NCBI GenBank assembly: GCA_024641475.1
Contig: JAHECZ010000020.1
Location: 1 to 48,597 of the forward strand
DNA length: 48,597 bases
Source of the DNA: Gammaproteobacteria bacterium
GTDB taxonomy: Bacteria > Pseudomonadota > Gammaproteobacteria > UBA6429 > Thiohalophilaceae
Direction of reading: 5' to 3'
The notes under the pieces are model-generated. The model made no database searches and had not been told where the DNA came from. It worked only from the letters and a program-made list of their open reading frames with translations. Both the position numbers and the translations under genes were made by a program. This document shows positions 1,608 through 13,739 of this stretch, one piece after another. The stretch's first letter is position 1; every line of letters begins with the position of its first letter.

Positions 1608-3668
<2,061 letters not shown>

Positions 3669-3830
3669 TTATAAAATCACCACGAGTTAATGAATAAGTA
3701 CAGTTAATCGAGCGTACTGCTCGGGAATAAGATTACTGTACGAAAGGTTACATACAGGATGCATTTATTATCCGGATATGTATCTTAAAGCACATATGGT
3801 AATGAAAAAATAAGATAAGTCATTAATTTG

Positions 3831-3854
3831 TAATAAAATCATTTGATTTTATTA
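3831..3854. repeat. Perfect AT-rich palindrome, two 11-bp arms
   Basis: The arms TAATAAAATCA (3831-3841) and TGATTTTATTA (3844-3854) are exact reverse complements around a central TT. It lies in the long non-coding stretch between prlC and the copper-protein genes. There is no U-tract after it and it is too AT-rich for a good terminator, so an operator for a dimeric regulator is more likely. Which regulator cannot be read from the sequence. Confidence 0.6.
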
Positions 3855-3948
3855 TGCAGCAAATAGTTCGCATACTCCTCCTCGCTTACATTATAACAAT
3901 AGTTAGTGTTCACACTTGCGTACTTATATTATAGAACCAGGAGGTTTT

Positions 3949-4104
3949 GTGACGCGTCGTAGCATTCTTAAGACGCGTGGCACAGGAAAGGCCACCCGCG
4001 TGATCTTCGCCAATGGATGGTGTGGTAGTAATACAAATAACAAAGCGAGAACTCCCCTCTTGCCCTTTGATCGACAGCTAATGCGAGAATTTTCGCTGTA
4101 CTAG
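3949..4104 (+). CDS. Possible 51-residue leader peptide with GTG start
   Basis: A GTG codon follows a full AGGAGG (3939-3944) at a four-base gap, a stronger ribosome site than most genes in this window have. The frame gives a basic, hydrophilic 51-residue peptide (VTRRSILKTRGTGKATRVIF... to ...QLMREFSLY) with one cysteine and no signal peptide or membrane segment. It ends 59 bases before the first multicopper-oxidase-like gene. It matches nothing I recognise. It could be a small regulatory protein, a leader peptide, or chance within a structured RNA leader. Confidence 0.35.
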   Translation: MTRRSILKTRGTGKATRVIFANGWCGSNTNNKARTPLLPFDRQLMREFSLY

Positions 4105-4163
4105 CGTCGCTAAATCAGCAATGTCTCTATTACCCATTTAACCACGAATTTCTTGGAGAGGTT

Positions 4164-5072
4164 ATGAAAACCTATATATGCCTGTTAGGGCTGTTGTTGG
4201 GCAGTGCTATGCCCGCGTATGCAGCGAGTTATAACTTATATATTGCAGCTGGAACTCACACAATCAATGGCGCCGGCGGTACGACCATCAATGTGTGGGG
4301 TTATACCGATAATTTAAGCGCCGGTCCGATGGTCCCGGGACCTGAGTTGGCTTCAACCGAAAATGGTTCCGTCACCGTTACCGTTCATAACAACGACACA
4401 CGTCCGCATAACTTTGTGGTGTTAGGTGTAACCACCGATACCGGTTCGATTGTTGCCGGTGGCAGCAAAATCTATACCTTTACGACCCCAAACGCCGGCG
4501 TCTATCTCTATGCCGACACCTTGAACAGCAACGTCAATCGCGAAATGGGTCTCTATGGCGCGTTAGTCGTGCGTGCAGCGGGCGGTGCCAAAGTGGTTTG
4601 GACCGGTGGGCCCAAATATGATTTTGAACGTGTCTGGATCACCTCGGATATGGATAAGCCTCGCTGGAATGATATTGCCAGTAAAGGTGGCACGGTAAAT
4701 ACGTCTGTTTATAAACCCAATTATTTTATGATGAACGGTATGGGTGGGTTCGATGCGATGCGCGATACGAATACCACACTCGTTGGCTCGGTAGGCCAAT
4801 ACGGTCTGGCGCGTATCGTCAATGCCGGGTTGTTTGATGAGTCGCTGCATTTTCACGGTAACCATATGCAGGTTGTCATGGAGAATGGCAAGCGGCAAGT
4901 ACCCTCCGAGTGGACCGACACCATCAATGTCAAGGCGGGTCAAACTATGCTGATTCTCTACCAAATCAAATTCGCCAAAAATGTTTTTCCAATGCATGTG
5001 CACACGGCACAAATGGAAACATCCGGTGGGGTGTACCTAAATGGCGTTGCAACCTTGATCATTGGCCAATAA
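4164..5072 (+). CDS. Two-domain multicopper-oxidase-like protein A (no type 1 copper site)
   Basis: 302 residues with a signal peptide cleaved near residue 20 (PAYA-ASY). Two cupredoxin domains follow. In domain 1, where oxidases carry an HxH motif, there is YAD at 116-118 (context GVYLYADT...MGLYGALVV), so the copper ligands are lost. Domain 2 keeps HFHGNH at 229-234 and MHVH at 277-280 (FPMHVHTAQMETSGG), which align with the two trinuclear-centre motifs of domain 2 or 3 in laccases. The type 1 cysteine normally next to the second motif is absent. GGAGAGG precedes the ATG. The next gene starts 19 bases on and supplies the missing motifs, so the two may form one enzyme (see findings). Alone it could be a copper-binding or structural protein. 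Confidence 0.75.
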   Translation: MKTYICLLGLLLGSAMPAYAASYNLYIAAGTHTINGAGGTTINVWGYTDNLSAGPMVPGPELASTENGSVTVTVHNNDTRPHNFVVLGVTTDTGSIVAGGSKIYTFTTPNAGVYLYADTLNSNVNREMGLYGALVVRAAGGAKVVWTGGPKYDFERVWITSDMDKPRWNDIASKGGTVNTSVYKPNYFMMNGMGGFDAMRDTNTTLVGSVGQYGLARIVNAGLFDESLHFHGNHMQVVMENGKRQVPSEWTDTINVKAGQTMLILYQIKFAKNVFPMHVHTAQMETSGGVYLNGVATLIIGQ

Positions 5073-5091
5073 TTTCCGGGAGATTTGAATC

Positions 5092-6201
5092 ATGAAATTA
5101 ACAACAAGTTCGTTAGTGAATCCCCGTCTACGGGGCCACGTTCTGGCACTCGCTACGCTCTCAGCTATTGCGATGATCGCGGGTAGTGCAGATGCACGCA
5201 GCATGGGTGGTACAACTACTACCACCACGACTACAACCACAACAATGGGTACGGCCACTACAACGACAGCGGCGATTCCGGTACTCGATGCCCGAAGCAC
5301 GACGCTGGTGGTGCAGCAGGTGAATAAAACCATGCACGATGGTGTGAACGTCCCATTCTGGGTTTTCTGTGCCAATGGGATGGGCGGCGGCGGTGGTTGC
5401 CAGCTACCGAGCCCAACCTTGCAGTTGGGTGTCGGTCAAACGGCCAATATCGTGCTTAACATGATGATGGCGCCGCAAGAAGCAGCCCCGTATCAAGGTC
5501 ATACCATTCATAATCACGGTATGGATGTATCGCAAGCGGAAGATGGTGTGCCGGAAACCGGGGCCGCAGTGCTGGGAGATACTTACACCTACAAAGTGGA
5601 CAGCCGTTATGTTGGATCGCACATGTACCACTGTCATGTGCACACCGTGAAGCATCTGGAGATGGGTATGTATGGTGCGCTGATCATCAAAGATACCGAC
5701 AGCGCCGGTAATTTGCTGAATGTCATCAATCACGGTGGACCGACCTATGACTATGAATGGAACATGGTGCTGAGTGCGGTCGATCCAGCCTACCATGCAA
5801 ATAATGCCGTGGGCGACTCCACTGTTTTTTCGGACTATAACCCCAAATATTATTTGATCAATGGCAATGAAGGCCTAAGTAAAACTGCGGTGGCGCAAGC
5901 GTTTACTGCAGCAACGGGCAAGAAGGTAGCCATTCGACTGGTTGGAACGTCATCGGTGAATGCCACGTTCTCGATCAAGAACGCCAGTGGCGGGTCACAG
6001 TCATTTACAGTCTATAACGATGATGGCTTTGCACTCCCAGCGCCACAGACGGTGTCGAGTGTCACGGTATCGCCAGGGTCAAATTACGATTTGATCGTGA
6101 CCTTGCCAACGACTAGTAGCACCTGGTATCCGCAAGTGACCTATACCAGTGTACGCAATGGTATTGCGTATGGGACGGTATATACCTCACTAGCATTTTG
6201 A
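5092..6201 (+). CDS. Two-domain multicopper-oxidase-like protein B with type 1 copper motif in domain 1
   Basis: 369 residues with a signal peptide to about residue 35 (GSADA-RS). A threonine run at 41-51 and a second Thr/Ala-rich stretch to about 61 form a flexible linker. Domain 1 has HTIHNHG (H137, H140, H142) followed by DGVPETG, and MYHCHVHTVKH with EMGM (H180, C181, H182, H188, M191/M193). These are the first trinuclear HxH and a combined type 1/trinuclear HCH motif. Domain 2 (from about 240, YYLINGNEG, DDGFALPAP, SPGSNYDLIV) has the cupredoxin framework but no copper ligands. Placing type 1 copper in domain 1 resembles two-domain laccases. It is co-transcribed with protein A, is exported, and probably acts on copper or organic electron donors in the periplasm; the substrate is unknown. 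Confidence 0.8.
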   Translation: MKLTTSSLVNPRLRGHVLALATLSAIAMIAGSADARSMGGTTTTTTTTTTTMGTATTTTAAIPVLDARSTTLVVQQVNKTMHDGVNVPFWVFCANGMGGGGGCQLPSPTLQLGVGQTANIVLNMMMAPQEAAPYQGHTIHNHGMDVSQAEDGVPETGAAVLGDTYTYKVDSRYVGSHMYHCHVHTVKHLEMGMYGALIIKDTDSAGNLLNVINHGGPTYDYEWNMVLSAVDPAYHANNAVGDSTVFSDYNPKYYLINGNEGLSKTAVAQAFTAATGKKVAIRLVGTSSVNATFSIKNASGGSQSFTVYNDDGFALPAPQTVSSVTVSPGSNYDLIVTLPTTSSTWYPQVTYTSVRNGIAYGTVYTSLAF

Positions 6202-6214
6202 GATAGTCACAGAT

Positions 6215-6249
6215 AGACGGGATCCGCTTGCGCGGATCTCGTCTTTTTT
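6215..6249 (+). terminator. Intrinsic terminator or attenuator after the oxidase pair
   Basis: AGACG-G-GATCCGC (6215-6227), loop TTGC, then GCGGATC-T-CGTCT (6232-6244) forms a 12-pair stem with one mismatch, followed by TTTTT. It stands 10 bases before the lipoprotein start, so the lipoprotein and SCO genes are either read-through products or have their own promoter. Confidence 0.85.
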
Positions 6250-6258
6250 ACAAGACCA

Positions 6259-6885
6259 ATGAATAGGAAAAAACGACACAATATAGTGCGGCTGCTCGTT
6301 TGCCTGAGTGTGTTGGGTATGAGTGCTTGTCAGGGTAGCTTGTCACTCAATGCCGATGCATCAGCGGAGCCTATCGATCCGTACGATTATAATTATTGCG
6401 GCGGCGTGCCAGTGTATCCGGTAATAGGTGTCAGTTTTGCTACCTTCTGCGGCCCACGAAATCAAATAGCGGTAGGTCGTTATGGTACGTTGATGTGGCT
6501 GTTTCCCGATCCGGATGGTAGTAAAGCATTATTACAGGGTACACGCCAGCTCAGTGTACAAGAACTCAAACACTTGAGCTTGCTGGCTGAAGTGGTGCAT
6601 CTGGCCGATCCGATCGTGCCGCAACCCGGTAAGGTCAACTATCAGCTCGGTATAAATTTTCCTGGGCGCGCCAATAAACGGATACGTGGAGTCATGGATG
6701 CGCGCTATTCGCCGGCTAAAGAAATATTTCAAGTCTTGCTTGAGCTGGTGCCAGGCAAGCCCGTTTTGCCGGAATGTTCAACCCAGGCCGATTTTTTTGA
6801 TCCCGTTTTGTTACCCGGTAAACGCCATCCGCTGACGTTAAATGAAGTTATCGAATTTCAAGGAAACAGCCATGTTATTAAGTAA
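6259..6885 (+). CDS. Predicted lipoprotein of unknown function in the copper-protein cluster
   Basis: 208 residues. A basic N-terminus (MNRKKRHN) and a hydrophobic stretch end in MSAC with the acceptor cysteine at residue 24. The M at -3 is a slightly unusual lipobox. I do not recognise the rest. It has three more cysteines (one in NYCGGVPVYP, one in ATFCGPRN, one in PECSTQ), which could form disulfides or bind metal, and no HxH or methionine-rich copper motif. There is no clear Shine-Dalgarno before the ATG. Its 3' end overlaps the SCO gene by 14 bases, so the two are translated together and may serve the same copper pathway. Function inferred from position only. Confidence 0.6.
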   Translation: MNRKKRHNIVRLLVCLSVLGMSACQGSLSLNADASAEPIDPYDYNYCGGVPVYPVIGVSFATFCGPRNQIAVGRYGTLMWLFPDPDGSKALLQGTRQLSVQELKHLSLLAEVVHLADPIVPQPGKVNYQLGINFPGRANKRIRGVMDARYSPAKEIFQVLLELVPGKPVLPECSTQADFFDPVLLPGKRHPLTLNEVIEFQGNSHVIK

Positions 6886-7486
6886 GTGTAAAGCTAATCT
6901 GATAAATTTCGTTTGCGCAAATATTTTGTTATTTGTGTCATGGAGCGCATGGGGCGCCGATAATGCGGTGCAGGGTTTAAAAGTAGAGCCTGCCAAACAG
7001 ATCCAGACGCATATTTTGGTCAATCAGGATGCGCAATCAGTAAATTTTCCTGCGACAGGCAAGTGGCAATTGGCATTTTTTGGTTTTACCAGTTGTCCCG
7101 ACATTTGTCCGGTGACCATACAGAAGGCCTCACAGGTGCTAAAAAAACTTGGGGAACGGTCCCATGAATTAGAGGCCGTTTTTTTGAGTATCGACAGTGG
7201 TCGCGATCAGCCTGAAGTGGTGAAAAAATTCGTAACAACGCATGCCAGTCACATCACGGGATTAACCGGCGCAGACGGTACGGTCCAGGCGGTCGCCAAT
7301 GAGTTTGGCGTCATTGCACGGCGCTATCAGGGTAAGACCGCATTGTCATTTCGTATCGAACATTCGTCATTTTTATATCTGCTCGACCCGCAAGGTCGCA
7401 TTGTCATGTTATATCCGGAAAAGGTCGGTTATCAGCAAGTCGTGGCCGATTTCGAACGCCTGAGTACACTGCCAACGAAACCGTAA
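6872..7486 (+). CDS. SCO1/SenC-family copper chaperone
   Basis: 204 residues. A membrane anchor or signal segment (about 10-29, ending SWSAWGAD) is followed by a thioredoxin fold. The copper-binding CPDIC is at residues 75-79 (GFTSCPDICP) and the third ligand His at 164 (FRIEHSSFLYLLDPQG), so the site is complete. SCO proteins deliver Cu to the CuA site of aa3-type oxidases or act as periplasmic thiol reductants. The ATG at 6872 is preferred over the upstream in-frame ATG at 6842 because AAGGAAA precedes it at normal spacing. It overlaps the lipoprotein gene. Given the neighbours it may metallate the two multicopper proteins; there is no CuA oxidase in the window. Confidence 0.9.
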   Translation: MLLSKCKANLINFVCANILLFVSWSAWGADNAVQGLKVEPAKQIQTHILVNQDAQSVNFPATGKWQLAFFGFTSCPDICPVTIQKASQVLKKLGERSHELEAVFLSIDSGRDQPEVVKKFVTTHASHITGLTGADGTVQAVANEFGVIARRYQGKTALSFRIEHSSFLYLLDPQGRIVMLYPEKVGYQQVVADFERLSTLPTKP

Positions 7487-7500
7487 AAAAGATTGTTCCA

Positions 7501-7534
7501 GTCCGCCCTGCCATTTCAGGTAGTATGGGCGGAC
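7501..7534 (+). promoter_or_regulatory. Hairpin directly before the srkA start codon
   Basis: GTCCGCCC (7501-7508) and GGGCGGAC (7527-7534) are perfect reverse complements separated by 18 bases, and the right arm ends one base before the srkA ATG. In RNA it would fold over the ribosome-binding region. No ordinary Shine-Dalgarno is visible, so translation may be controlled here. There is no U-tract, so it is not a standard terminator for the SCO gene. Confidence 0.5.
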
Positions 7535-7535
7535 C

Positions 7536-8531
7536 ATGGAAACCCTCTTATCTGTAGATCACACGCCTTACGCTGGGTTGACGCCGGATGTCATTCTGGA
7601 TGCACTTGCAGCGTTGGGATTACAACCCAGCGGACGATTTATCGCGCTCAACAGTTATGAAAACCGCGTTTACCAAATAGAACTGGAGGGCGGTGAATAC
7701 GTCGTCGTTAAATTTTACCGTGGCGGGCGCTGGTCGGACGACACGATTCTGGAAGAGCATGCATATGCTTTGGAATTGGCGGAGCAAGGGATACCGATGA
7801 TCCCGCCGCGTGTCATTGATGGAAAAACATTATTAACGCATGCAGGATTTCGTTATGCAATTTATCCGCGCCGCGGTGGTCGACCACCGGAATTGGAACA
7901 TGCCGATGTACAGGAGCAGCTCGGCCGTATGCTTGGCCGCATGCATGCGGTGGGACGATTGCAGCGTTTTGAACATCGCCCGTTATTGAGCGTGATGAAT
8001 TACGGGCGAGTGGCAATAGAGGCAATTGAACAAAGCGGTTTTGTACCAACACATGTGCAGCATAATTATTTTTTTATTGCCAATGAATTATTAACCATGA
8101 TGGAAGATCGATTTGCCGCCATCGATGCACGCAGTATACGCTTGCACGGTGATTGCCATCCGGGGAATATTTTATGGACCGATGCCGGTCCGCACATGGT
8201 GGATCTGGATGATTGTTGTACCGGGCCAGCGATGCAGGATCTGTGGATGCTGTTGTCCGGCACGCGCGAGGAAATGACCAAACAATTACGTACACTGATC
8301 GATGGCTATGAAACTTTCAACGAATTTGATTACAGTGAATTTCGCCTGATAGAAGCGTTACGTGGTCTGCGACTAATCCACTATAGCGGCTGGTTGACGC
8401 GGCGTTGGCAAGACCCGGCATTTCCGCATCACTTTCCGTGGTTCAATACGCCGCGTTATTGGGAAGAGCAAGTGAACATCCTGCGTGAGCAATTTGAGAC
8501 GCTGCAACATGAACCGCCATTAAAATTATAG
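7536..8531 (+). CDS. srkA: Stress response kinase A (YihE/RdoA family)
   Basis: 331 residues, near the 328 of E. coli SrkA, a eukaryotic-like Ser/Thr kinase that counteracts stress-induced cell death and is linked to the Cpx response. Early conserved block ALNSYENRVYQ (about 40-50), nucleotide-binding lysine region YVVVKFYRGGRW (about 58-70), catalytic loop HGDCHPGNILW (near 203-213) with the aspartate and asparagine, and metal-binding MVDLDDC (near 221-227). The N-terminus TPDVILDALAALG matches the family, which supports this start. It is cytosolic. An intrinsic terminator follows, so it ends the plus-strand block. Confidence 0.93.
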   Translation: METLLSVDHTPYAGLTPDVILDALAALGLQPSGRFIALNSYENRVYQIELEGGEYVVVKFYRGGRWSDDTILEEHAYALELAEQGIPMIPPRVIDGKTLLTHAGFRYAIYPRRGGRPPELEHADVQEQLGRMLGRMHAVGRLQRFEHRPLLSVMNYGRVAIEAIEQSGFVPTHVQHNYFFIANELLTMMEDRFAAIDARSIRLHGDCHPGNILWTDAGPHMVDLDDCCTGPAMQDLWMLLSGTREEMTKQLRTLIDGYETFNEFDYSEFRLIEALRGLRLIHYSGWLTRRWQDPAFPHHFPWFNTPRYWEEQVNILREQFETLQHEPPLKL

Positions 8532-11848: not shown

Positions 11849-13426
11849 TTAAAATCGAAATTCGTATTCCAATGTTGCCTTGAGTGTGCCAGACGGAGCT
11901 GCCGAGCCGATACCAAATAGATAACCGAGTTCATAGCGCCATTTACTGTTATCAGCGCCTTTAAGCTCACCATAGAGGACCGGTCCGGCGCGATGATCCT
12001 GCTGTGTGCCCGGTAAAACATGGCCTATTTCACCCATCTCACCATAGATTTCGAAGCCAGGATTGAAATGTTTGTTGAGTAAATACTGGCTGCGCCAGGC
12101 GTATTCAAAATTTGTGGCGCTGCTCGCACCACTGCCAATTTCACGTACAAAGACCAGGTTGAGGCTATGAACAAAATGACTGAGGGTTTTTTCCAACAGT
12201 AATTTTGTTTCCAGCACATCATTCGCAGTCGAATCAGCAGGATGTTCATATTCCACATAGATGCCGACATCAAGCCAGAATTGTCCAGGCTCGGTGAGTT
12301 GCAAAATGTTTTCCCAGGCAGTGGCGCTATGCTGGCGCGATGCACCGGGCTGGGCTTCTGATTCTCCAACGAATGCAGTGAACCAGCGATCCGAAACACC
12401 ATAACCGACCTCAAGCTTGGTTTGTGCGGTGCCATCTTTCGCGGTATTGCTGTCAAATGTACGATGACTGCGCATTTCGATTTCAACCTCACCCGCACTC
12501 ACGGTTGGTGAATACACTTTATGGCTGGCGTGGGCAGGATCGCTTTGCAGTGATAACACAATGATCAAAGCAGGAATGGCGACCAACATGCGAGTTGGCA
12601 CCAGAGCAGATGAGTTATTCATAAGTCGAGTGAGTAAAAGAATCGTAATTATGGTCAGTGCATAGGCCAGCAACTGGATGCCCATCGGTTGATCCAGATA
12701 ACCCAAGGTAATATGCAAAAACTGACCAAACAGGCTGTGTTGGGACAAAAGTGATGAGCTGTCCCAGATTTCATAACCTAACGCCGGTAAATAATTTGCC
12801 TGCACCAGATAACCGGCCGATTGTGCCGCCAGACCTGCTGCAAGAAACAGGATCAACCAACCCGTGACACGAAACAGTGTATGAACCGGAATGCGCAACA
12901 AGCCAAAATAAAGTATAAAACCAATTAAAATTCCCGCGCTCAAACCAAATAACGAACCAAGTAATAAAGTACCTGCATCTGAACCAGAGGCAGCGATGCC
13001 ATACAGGAACAGTACCAGTTCGCTGCCTTCACGCAGCACCGCCAGGCCAATGATGATGGCCAACGCGGAGGGCGCCTGCTCCCCTGCTATCACCGATGCG
13101 CCAACACGACGAATGTGTTGGGAAATTTGTGCGGCATGTTTACGCATCCACACCAAGTGCCAGGTGAGCATAATGACGGCAGCAAATAAAATTGCAGCGT
13201 TGAGCAATTCCTGGCCCGCACCGTCCATGGCAAGGTTGATGTGCCCGGCAAAACTCGCCAGCAGAATCGCACCGCTGAGACCGGCAAGAATTCCTAACAG
13301 GATCCAGCGCCCACGGCCAGACATGCCACGCGTGGCGGCAAGCATCAATGAGATGATGAGGGAAGCTTCCAGGACTTCGCGAAAAACAATAATGGCTGTT
13401 GCTAACATGATGGCCTCACTTAACAA
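11849..13426 (-). CDS. FTR1/EfeU-type iron permease fused to a C-terminal outer-membrane-type beta-barrel domain
   Basis: 525 residues, about twice the usual length. Residues 1-268 are an FTR1 permease with REVLE (16-20) and REGSE (132-136), the two iron-coordinating REXXE motifs, and seven membrane helices. Residues 280-300 (MLVAIPALIIVLSLQSDPAHA) look like a signal peptide with an AHA-S cleavage site. From 301 there are alternating amphipathic strands ending EYEFRF with a C-terminal phenylalanine, as in outer-membrane barrels. The frame is continuous; the in-frame ATG at 12622 has no ribosome site. It overlaps the upstream cupredoxin gene by 11 bases and lies behind a Fur box. It presumably imports iron in the inner membrane, with the barrel either cleaved off or a second product (see findings). 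Confidence 0.85.
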   Translation of the reverse strand: MLSEAIMLATAIIVFREVLEASLIISLMLAATRGMSGRGRWILLGILAGLSGAILLASFAGHINLAMDGAGQELLNAAILFAAVIMLTWHLVWMRKHAAQISQHIRRVGASVIAGEQAPSALAIIIGLAVLREGSELVLFLYGIAASGSDAGTLLLGSLFGLSAGILIGFILYFGLLRIPVHTLFRVTGWLILFLAAGLAAQSAGYLVQANYLPALGYEIWDSSSLLSQHSLFGQFLHITLGYLDQPMGIQLLAYALTIITILLLTRLMNNSSALVPTRMLVAIPALIIVLSLQSDPAHASHKVYSPTVSAGEVEIEMRSHRTFDSNTAKDGTAQTKLEVGYGVSDRWFTAFVGESEAQPGASRQHSATAWENILQLTEPGQFWLDVGIYVEYEHPADSTANDVLETKLLLEKTLSHFVHSLNLVFVREIGSGASSATNFEYAWRSQYLLNKHFNPGFEIYGEMGEIGHVLPGTQQDHRAGPVLYGELKGADNSKWRYELGYLFGIGSAAPSGTLKATLEYEFRF

Positions 13427-13739
13427 TCAGAGTGCCGTGCGCAGTGTCTTCATGAAACTCGCCGACGAAGCGATACTTGCCTGGCTGTAGCGGTCCCACC
13501 CTGATTATTGCGCGGCTGTTACCGGGGATGATTTTCTCGCGGTGTAAATCGTGGCTTTCAAATTCTTCTACAGTGGCGTCTTGATTGATGATGGCCAGCC
13601 AAACCTTGGTGTCTTTGGGTATGGTGATCTCGCTGGGCGTAAAGCGATGGTCTTTGATCGTAATATCAAAAGACGGTTCTTCAGCAAAAGACAGTGAGCC
13701 ATAGAGGAACATGGCTGTAAGCAGGACGAGGCGCAACAT
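13416..13739 (-). CDS. Small periplasmic cupredoxin, EfeO-cupredoxin-like
   Basis: 107 residues with a signal peptide ending SLSFA-EE (about residue 19). The rest is a single cupredoxin fold (FDITIKDHRFTPSEITIPKD, NQDATVEEFESHDLHRE, PGKYRFVGEFHEDTAHGTLIV). Instead of a CxxxxH type 1 site it has acidic and histidine residues (EEFESHD, EFHEDTAHG), like the cupredoxin part of EfeO, which is proposed to bind and oxidise ferrous iron, or copper. It is the first gene of a two-gene unit with the FTR1 permease and has a Fur box upstream, so it probably hands iron to the permease. It replaces the missing EfeO and EfeB of a full EfeUOB system. Confidence 0.85.
   Translation of the reverse strand: MLRLVLLTAMFLYGSLSFAEEPSFDITIKDHRFTPSEITIPKDTKVWLAIINQDATVEEFESHDLHREKIIPGNSRAIIRVGPLQPGKYRFVGEFHEDTAHGTLIVK

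Follow-up and report, generated by a model that had tools for sequence, protein, structure and literature searches.

Two adjacent genes very probably encode complementary subunits of one heteromeric multicopper oxidase with a shared trinuclear centre

Can two genes, each without half of the copper ligands of a multicopper oxidase (MCO), together encode a single enzyme? This question is raised by a gene pair, here called A and B, in a stretch of 48,597 nucleotides (contig JAHECZ010000020.1 of the gammaproteobacterial genome assembly GCA_024641475.1), to which we refer in its full length as the window. The genes lie on the same strand with 19 bases between them and encode proteins of 302 and 369 amino acids, respectively; their features are compiled in Table 1. 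Both proteins matched Pfam MCO domains above the cut-off in both of their halves, and no NCBIfam family exceeded its cut-off for either of them. Signal peptides were called throughout by a hydrophobicity rule, not by a trained predictor, and a hydrophobic signal-like N-terminal stretch was found on both proteins of the window. A sequence-only reading of this DNA had described two adjacent exported-type open reading frames (ORFs) at 4164-6201, had placed the motifs HFHGNH (residues 229-234) and MHVH (residues 277-280) in A and HTIHNHG and YHCHVHTVKH, the latter with C181, in B, and had noted that A lacks a type 1 cysteine; the coordinates and motif positions were correct, and D118 occupies the cysteine position of A. 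Comparative evidence makes it very probable that A and B are two subunits of one hetero-oligomeric MCO that share one trinuclear centre. The observations behind this reading are the complementarity of the ligands, the fixed pairing of the genes, the existence of fusions, an asymmetry of the export signals, a shared origin, and the confident co-fold of relatives. They support the earlier proposal that one oxidase is formed from two genes, each contributing half of the trinuclear centre, and the fusions, the twin-arginine (Tat) hitchhiking, and the mirrored trees provide support beyond that on which the proposal had been based.

The ligand positions were compared in an alignment of 76 A and 70 B proteins; as controls, 11 canonical type C two-domain MCOs from the same survey, each a single chain, were included. 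This set was derived from 81 A and 74 B ORFs: two A were set aside (L084, with Ns inside the gene, and L129, a fusion; L and G numbers designate loci and genomes), and three A and four B ORFs were dropped as cut by contig ends, none being dropped for a missing motif. The following pattern was obtained. (i) All four domain 2 histidines were present in each of the 76 A proteins, and the motif HFHGNH, with its H234, was invariant in a set of 20 A proteins. At the domain 1 trinuclear positions, 69 A proteins kept no histidine and seven kept one. (ii) The four domain 1 trinuclear histidines were intact in 69 of the 70 B proteins, L113 having Asn at one of them. The domain 2 trinuclear positions of B contained no histidine in 67 cases and a single one in three (L110, L114, and L115), and no HxH motif was found beyond domain 1 (0/70). 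(iii) The type 1 ligands, counted as His, Cys, and His with M193 of B outside the count table, were kept in all B proteins. In A, the Cys was replaced by Asp in 76/76 and the second His by Asn in 73/76, and the first His was kept in 74/76. (iv) All ligands were found in one chain in each of the 11 controls. No protein retained a histidine pair in its degenerate domain, and, taken together, the ligands kept by A and B make up a single type 1 site and eight trinuclear histidines, each protein contributing four. The complementary halves (A domain 2 and B domain 1) proposed from the window are thereby borne out and are not due to chance. As a separate observation, the former type 1 site of A (window positions 4407-4538, residues 82, 118, and 125) is remodelled alike across the A proteins and possibly forms a structural network or another metal site.

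Copper sites are gone from two of the four domains, as might be expected if the pair were a decaying type C oxidase with both copies heading to pseudogenes. However, distant genomes agree in which ligands are kept and which are lost, and both A and B have long open frames and invariant residues; we regard decay as extremely improbable.

The pairing of the two genes was assessed in a scan of 84,980 genomes. Many of the genomes surveyed are metagenome-assembled. The scan yielded 252 relatives of A; the best 80 of them, corresponding to 79 distinct loci, were examined. B was located 3' of A on the same strand in 72 of these 79 best loci, mostly at a distance of 40 bases or less, and the other seven consisted of one fusion, five loci within 500 bases of a contig end, and one that runs into Ns. 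Among 274 genomes of the window's class, the same 16 contained A and B and 258 contained neither (Fisher test, 3e-26). The limit of 200 bits for a true A or B in this sample was chosen after the scores were seen; the lowest accepted best matches per genome were 222.7 (A) and 281.7 (B), and the highest rejected ones were 140.2 and 139.5, respectively. According to their coordinates, A and B adjoin in all 16 genomes, in G471 via two overlapping contig ends. In a second class, 23 of 195 genomes gave matches, and the halves were side by side or fused, by coordinates, in all 23. The pair also occurs in records without a metagenome label, namely, Methylobacter sp. BlB1 (L071) and Thiobacillus denitrificans RG (L120), and on two plasmids of Indioceanicola profundi. 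The sequence-only reading had stated that genomes with either gene alone would refute it; no intact locus with A alone or B alone was found among the 16 and 23 genomes of the two classes or among the 79 best loci. Several candidates were rejected: G471 as a case of B without adjacent A, because its contig ends encode the same stretch of B and thus a contiguous A-B-B order, and two Actinomycetota matches (L217 and L218) as A-B pairs, as they are complete single-chain enzymes of another type. A search for A on viral contigs gave 31 pattern matches, none of which was confirmed.

Natural fusions of the two genes were also found, in two genomes that are distant from each other. In L129 (the same gene as L140), a metagenome-assembled locus assigned to Myxococcota by its tree label, A and B form one ORF of 854 amino acids, and the base composition of its extra linker is coding-like; the relative L151, with 58 and 61 percent identity, has two separate genes. 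Two copies of an A-B fusion of 782 amino acids are present in G714, which belongs to the phylum of the Thermoleophilia genome L132. Since L129 groups in the tree with L151 and L152, which are unfused, and the fusions of G714 lie outside that group, the tree suggests that fusion happened at least twice, or that fission did. Fusions suggested by open-frame lengths in G085, G086, and G162 were rejected, as these ORFs are separate genes, and Arthrobacter FW305-BF8 (L210), which has overlapping ORFs of this kind, was likewise not counted as a fusion. Two further observations concern the N termini. Inspected by eye, the G714 fusions (L216:1474-3822 and L219:1429-3777) start without an evident signal peptide, and they may therefore function intracellularly or be exported by other means. 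Very long N-terminal extensions were seen in two A ORFs, L089:2511-5870 (1119 amino acids) and L090:367-4137 (1256 amino acids).

The export signals are distributed asymmetrically over the pair. In clade 2, a Tat signal was found on 45/45 A proteins, and 39 of the 40 paired B proteins had no hydrophobic N terminus, even when read from the first possible ORF start; only L096, whose ORF is over-long, differed. In clade 1, to which the window belongs, a signal-like stretch was present on 33 of 34 B proteins, all but the likewise over-long ORF of L061, and the twin-arginine pattern was found in 1 of 36 A proteins. The presence of a signal-less B beside an exported A points to the export of clade 2 A-B as a folded complex, the partners of which would be bound to each other in the cytoplasm. 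This resembles Tat hitchhiker complexes such as NXR, a molybdenum enzyme and not a copper oxidase, for which a signal-bearing subunit is proposed to carry the signal-less partner across the membrane (PMC3578206, in part).

These data bear on the alternative that the two proteins act separately, with B as a blue copper electron carrier or type 1-only copper binder and A as a periplasmic copper binder, neither of them participating in O2 reduction. Each protein does lack half of the trinuclear ligands, and no activity is known for A or B. However, separate roles leave unexplained why eight trinuclear histidines are retained, four per partner, and account neither for the fusions nor for the Tat hitchhiking and the strict pairing, and we consider this alternative very unlikely.

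The origin of the pair was analyzed in a tree with 63 rows, in which two NirK rows served as the outgroup; these two rows also lie outside A and B in another tree, drawn with a midpoint root. The A-side rows were on one branch (27 rows, support 97/90), as were the B-side rows (24 rows, 93/84), and the two sides were sisters (94/88), apart from the canonical type C rows and from unsplit Deinococcus proteins. The main clades followed the same order on both sides, i.e., the three-gene clade, clade 1, clade e, and then clade d with the fusions versus clade 2, and the A-A and B-B distances were correlated (r of 0.958 over 65 pairs; 0.81 and 0.79 within clades). Given the sister families and their mirrored branching, the simplest reading of the tree is that a type C-like homomer was duplicated once in ancient times, followed by complementary loss and then co-inheritance. 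The unsplit Deinococcus plasmid MCOs, which lie outside A and B, carry the four motifs in one chain in 3/3 cases (L211:4827-6146, L213:1315-2652, and L214:1321-2643) and are possible models of the pre-duplication enzyme. An identity as copper nitrite reductase was rejected, because A scored 30.8 bits against a cut-off of 296 (NCBIfam TIGR02376).

Structure prediction was carried out for relatives. The A and B proteins of L063, a same-frame relative of the window pair (64% identical in A and 68% in B), were folded as one chain, and the AlphaFold model had a mean pLDDT of 90.5 and a pTM of 0.88, with values below 50 only at the N terminus and in the linker with the B signal. The natural fusion L129 gave a pLDDT of 77.2 and a pTM of 0.83. 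The rows of its alignment were from same-frame neighbours read through the stop; the single A and B rows were aligned correctly except for B of L131, and L131 (entirely) and L113 were left out. Two rigid halves without a fixed relative position would be expected to give a much lower pTM, and the model of the related pair L063 places A and B confidently relative to each other, packed as one unit. Both halves of this model showed a beta-rich pattern. In Foldseek searches with it, six-domain rings ranked first (factor V, factor VIII, ceruloplasmin, and MnxG), the best factor V, ceruloplasmin, and MnxG rows having TMq values of 0.58-0.60 and a root mean square deviation (rmsd) of 8-12; MnxG was first for the L129 model (TMq 0.51, rmsd 11). 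The 50 rows shown by VIA-align for the L063 model were two-domain and NirK-type chains; that six-domain chains are missing from these rows carries no weight, given their first rank in Foldseek. Its best two-domain matches were 3g5w, a Nitrosomonas europaea blue copper oxidase (Z 30.3, rmsd 2.8, 268 residues), and 2zwn, a metagenome laccase (Z 30.1, rmsd 3.0, 269 residues), both of which we take to be of type C. The sequence-only reading had asked for predicted complexes that bring the motifs together; at the level of whole domains, the placement of A and B in the relative L063 is confident and ring-like.

The number of subunits is addressed by a second divided MCO in the genome of the window (contig G000:C77, locus L040:6730-11604), which consists of three tandem genes: a B-like gene (type 1 site and half of the centre), an A-like gene (the other half), and a third MCO-like gene without an HxH pair, which is an A paralogue that lacks the motifs and has cadherin-like repeats at its C terminus. 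A similar three-gene layout was found in L055, L056, L057, L059, L183, L184, and L186, and L185 is cut early. The third gene of L059 has one HxH, unlike the motifs; in L057, L059, L184, and L186, this third gene extends past the end of the stretch. For the three loci included, both trees placed the third gene as the sister of the A-like gene (100/97). If three two-domain subunits form a ring, only the A-to-B interface would be complete, so that one of two A subunits would be free to lose its ligands. The three-gene form thus favours A2B, and sequence comparison suggests that the assembly is probably a three-subunit ring with one active site and A2B composition. A 1:1 or AB2 complex would agree with the A-B-B gene order of G471, which weakens the 2-to-1 ratio, and with the packing of one A with one B by AlphaFold, and is opposed by the motif-free third subunit, which, as a sister of A, looks as if it replaced the second A in the ring; the balance on this alternative is even. 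We see an approximately equal chance for and against the wider proposal that an obligate A2B heterotrimer with one active site is a living intermediate between homotrimeric two-domain and six-domain ring oxidases, held by an irreversible ratchet of complementary losses. Its derived forms would be re-fusion (L129 and G714), a signal-less partner hitchhiking via Tat, and the B-A-C order with a motif-free A paralogue, which would echo the one-site ring of ceruloplasmin in separate genes.

A number of points weigh against a single shared-centre oxidase of this kind. (i) The loss of ligands is incomplete, since one domain 1 trinuclear histidine remains in 7/76 A and one domain 2 histidine in 3/70 B, and the B protein of L113 has Asn at a trinuclear position. 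(ii) The A gene L187:3507-4472 (G536) is frameshifted ahead of the last histidine pair; its out-of-frame C terminus reflects either an assembly error or decay. (iii) The support for the A-B sister branch, 94/88, is just below the star of the tool, and shared species history contributes to mirrored trees and correlated distances, which are also expected from it. (iv) The co-folds come from the relatives L063 and L129 and not from the window pair, AlphaFold may readily dock homologous cupredoxin domains, and the Foldseek superpositions on six-domain rings are loose (TMq 0.51-0.60, rmsd 8-12).

In MCOs, electrons pass from the type 1 copper via a Cys-His bridge to the trinuclear centre, where O2 is reduced to water. 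For A and B, copper binding, catalysis, substrate, and stoichiometry are inferred from comparative data. The pair would have arisen by duplication of a homomeric type C-like two-domain MCO, with the type 1 copper in domain 1 and the trinuclear centre between subunits. Loss of complementary ligands from the copies would have left a single complete site where A domain 2 meets B domain 1. Substrate electrons would enter at the type 1 copper of B and reach the trinuclear centre via the Cys181-His bridge, with reduction of O2 to water.

The substrate was approached through neighbouring genes. Counts were made in 66 loci with the pair and flanks; they are lower bounds, because the flanks are often short. 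A CusA/CzcA-like gene was found in at least 14 of the 66 loci (11 of 37 in clade 2), a CusB-like gene in at least 12, and a Crp/Fnr-type regulator in at least 13, one example each of the CusA/CzcA-like and CusB-like clusters having been identified. T. denitrificans RG combines A and B with CusA/CzcA (964 bits, cut-off 701) and with a CusB-like adaptor that carries a heavy metal binding domain, and in Methylobacter BlB1, a MacB-type permease comes after A and B. In Escherichia coli, the periplasmic Cu(I) oxidase CueO works alongside Cus efflux. By analogy with this model, the Cus-type neighbours make periplasmic Cu(I) oxidation, i.e., a role in copper tolerance, the likeliest function, which we favour with some reserve: the neighbourhood is the sole argument for Cu(I), and no Cus genes lie beside the window pair. 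Fe(II), Mn(II), or a phenol as the substrate of the heteromeric MCO is a less likely, although real, alternative. An FTR1 iron permease and a cupredoxin are encoded about 6 kb from the pair in the window, and the Mn oxidase MnxG was the first Foldseek match of the L129 fusion. However, no FTR1 cluster was among the neighbour clusters listed for the 66 loci, i.e., those present in at least three loci, whereas Cus-type efflux was, and likeness to six-domain rings does not reveal the substrate.

Downstream of the pair, a strong intrinsic terminator indicates that A-B is probably its own transcription unit, with the lipoprotein-like and SCO genes beyond it. The linked SCO gene had been read as fitting copper delivery. 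It does follow the pair in the window; however, it lies beyond the terminator and is rare elsewhere, the only other cases 3' of the pair being 5 of the 79 loci (L061-L065) and G031 (L022), and a Cus-type efflux pump is the commoner partner. The lipoprotein-like gene between B and SCO was likewise seen only in the window, L061-L065, and L022. Further observations concern the surroundings of the pair. Within window positions 1608-8531, it lies between an oligopeptidase-like and a kinase-like gene (named by eye), and in L096, L122, L123, L128, and L133, relatives of both genes are found beside a clade 2 pair, the kinase-like one being upstream of the pair there and not downstream. The FTR1 gene (window positions 11849-13739, minus strand; Pfam 132 bits, residues 7-288) adjoins that of the cupredoxin-like protein, and its ORF extends into a C-terminal half without a Pfam match.

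Table 1. Features of the A-B locus and the genes downstream (window coordinates)
Feature	Coordinates	Strand	Remarks
Subunit A, exported two-domain cupredoxin protein	4164..5072	+	Trinuclear ligands and type 1 Cys absent from domain 1; four histidines of the trinuclear centre in domain 2
A domain 1, former type 1 Cys position, D118	4515..4517	+	Asp in 76/76 A
A domain 2 motif HFHGNH, residues 229-234	4848..4865	+	H229 and H231 trinuclear ligands (76/76 A)
A domain 2 motif MHVH, residues 277-280	4992..5003	+	H278 and H280 trinuclear ligands (76/76 A)
Putative ribosome binding site of B, GGGAGA	5078..5083	+	Within the 19-base gap; inferred from the sequence read
Subunit B, exported two-domain cupredoxin protein	5092..6201	+	Type 1 site plus four trinuclear histidines in domain 1; no copper ligands in domain 2
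B domain 1 motif HTIHNHG, residues 137-143	5500..5520	+	H137 type 1; H140/H142 trinuclear pair; roles by homology
B domain 1 motif YHCHVHTVKHLEMGM	5626..5670	+	H180 and H182 trinuclear; C181, H188, and M193 type 1; roles by homology
Strong intrinsic terminator 3' of the A-B unit	6215..6250	+	13-pair stem, then T run; -24 kcal/mol, z -6.55
Lipoprotein-like protein	6259..6885	+	No Pfam family; 3' of the pair in the nearest relatives (window, L061-L065, L022)
SCO1/SenC copper chaperone, CPDIC motif	6872..7486	+	Pfam SCO1-SenC, 116 bits

How does A-B relate to known systems? In the open-access literature, with few subscription journals and no preprints covered, we found no MCO whose oxygen-reducing centre comes from two gene products, or whose trinuclear centre is divided. 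In the annotation of the complete Indioceanicola profundi plasmid, the one annotated example, B is a multicopper oxidase domain-containing protein and A a hypothetical protein; with such an annotation, B might be cloned alone and taken as dead. The heterodimeric fungal laccases of the POXA3 type consist of one subunit that is a complete laccase and an unrelated small subunit, and they resemble A-B as heteromeric laccases in name only, since in A-B the centre would be shared between both subunits. CueO and CopA are single chains of three domains; A-B resembles them in the probable periplasmic Cu(I) oxidation beside Cus efflux, but both proteins are far below the family cut-offs, B scoring 34 bits against 525 for CueO and 44 against 479 for CopA (NCBIfam).

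Two-domain MCOs, which are among the systems closest to A-B, are homotrimers that fall into types A, B, and C and hold the trinuclear centre where two protomers meet (PMC3192119 and PMC13151041, each in part). A and B share with type C the two cupredoxin domains per chain, the four motif types, and the best structural matches; the domain 1 type 1 site is present in B (70/70) and not in A (Asp in 76/76). The differences are that one type C gene holds all four motifs, whereas two genes hold half each here, with the trinuclear ligands split four and four between the polypeptides; that two of the four A-B domains are without trinuclear ligands; and that the sister families lie outside the canonical type C rows in the tree. 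Bacterial six-domain MCOs such as MnxG are single chains whose assembly contains a single trinuclear centre, located between domains 2 and 3; the other equivalent sites are lost, and the type 1 copper is in domain 2 (PMC3600357, in part). A-B shares with them the single centre, which is predicted between the second and third domains in A-B order, but it is divided into two two-domain chains (four domains in the natural fusions), and its type 1 ligands belong to the third domain, which is domain 1 of B. With the centre placed as in MnxG and the type 1 copper in the third domain, the comparison indicates a type C-like assembly, not a broken MnxG. Ceruloplasmin and hephaestin are likewise six-domain rings with a single trinuclear centre and equivalent sites lost, and they differ from A-B in being single chains with the centre between domains 1 and 6 and up to three type 1 sites (PMC3600357, in part). 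Many bacteria share the arrangement, which may represent a step so far missing from the evolution of large copper oxidases; it offers a natural system for how symmetric homomers become obligate heteromers and bears on the origin of one-site six-domain oxidases such as MnxG and ceruloplasmin. Judged from its sequence, A-B very probably works like both the type C and the six-domain MCOs.

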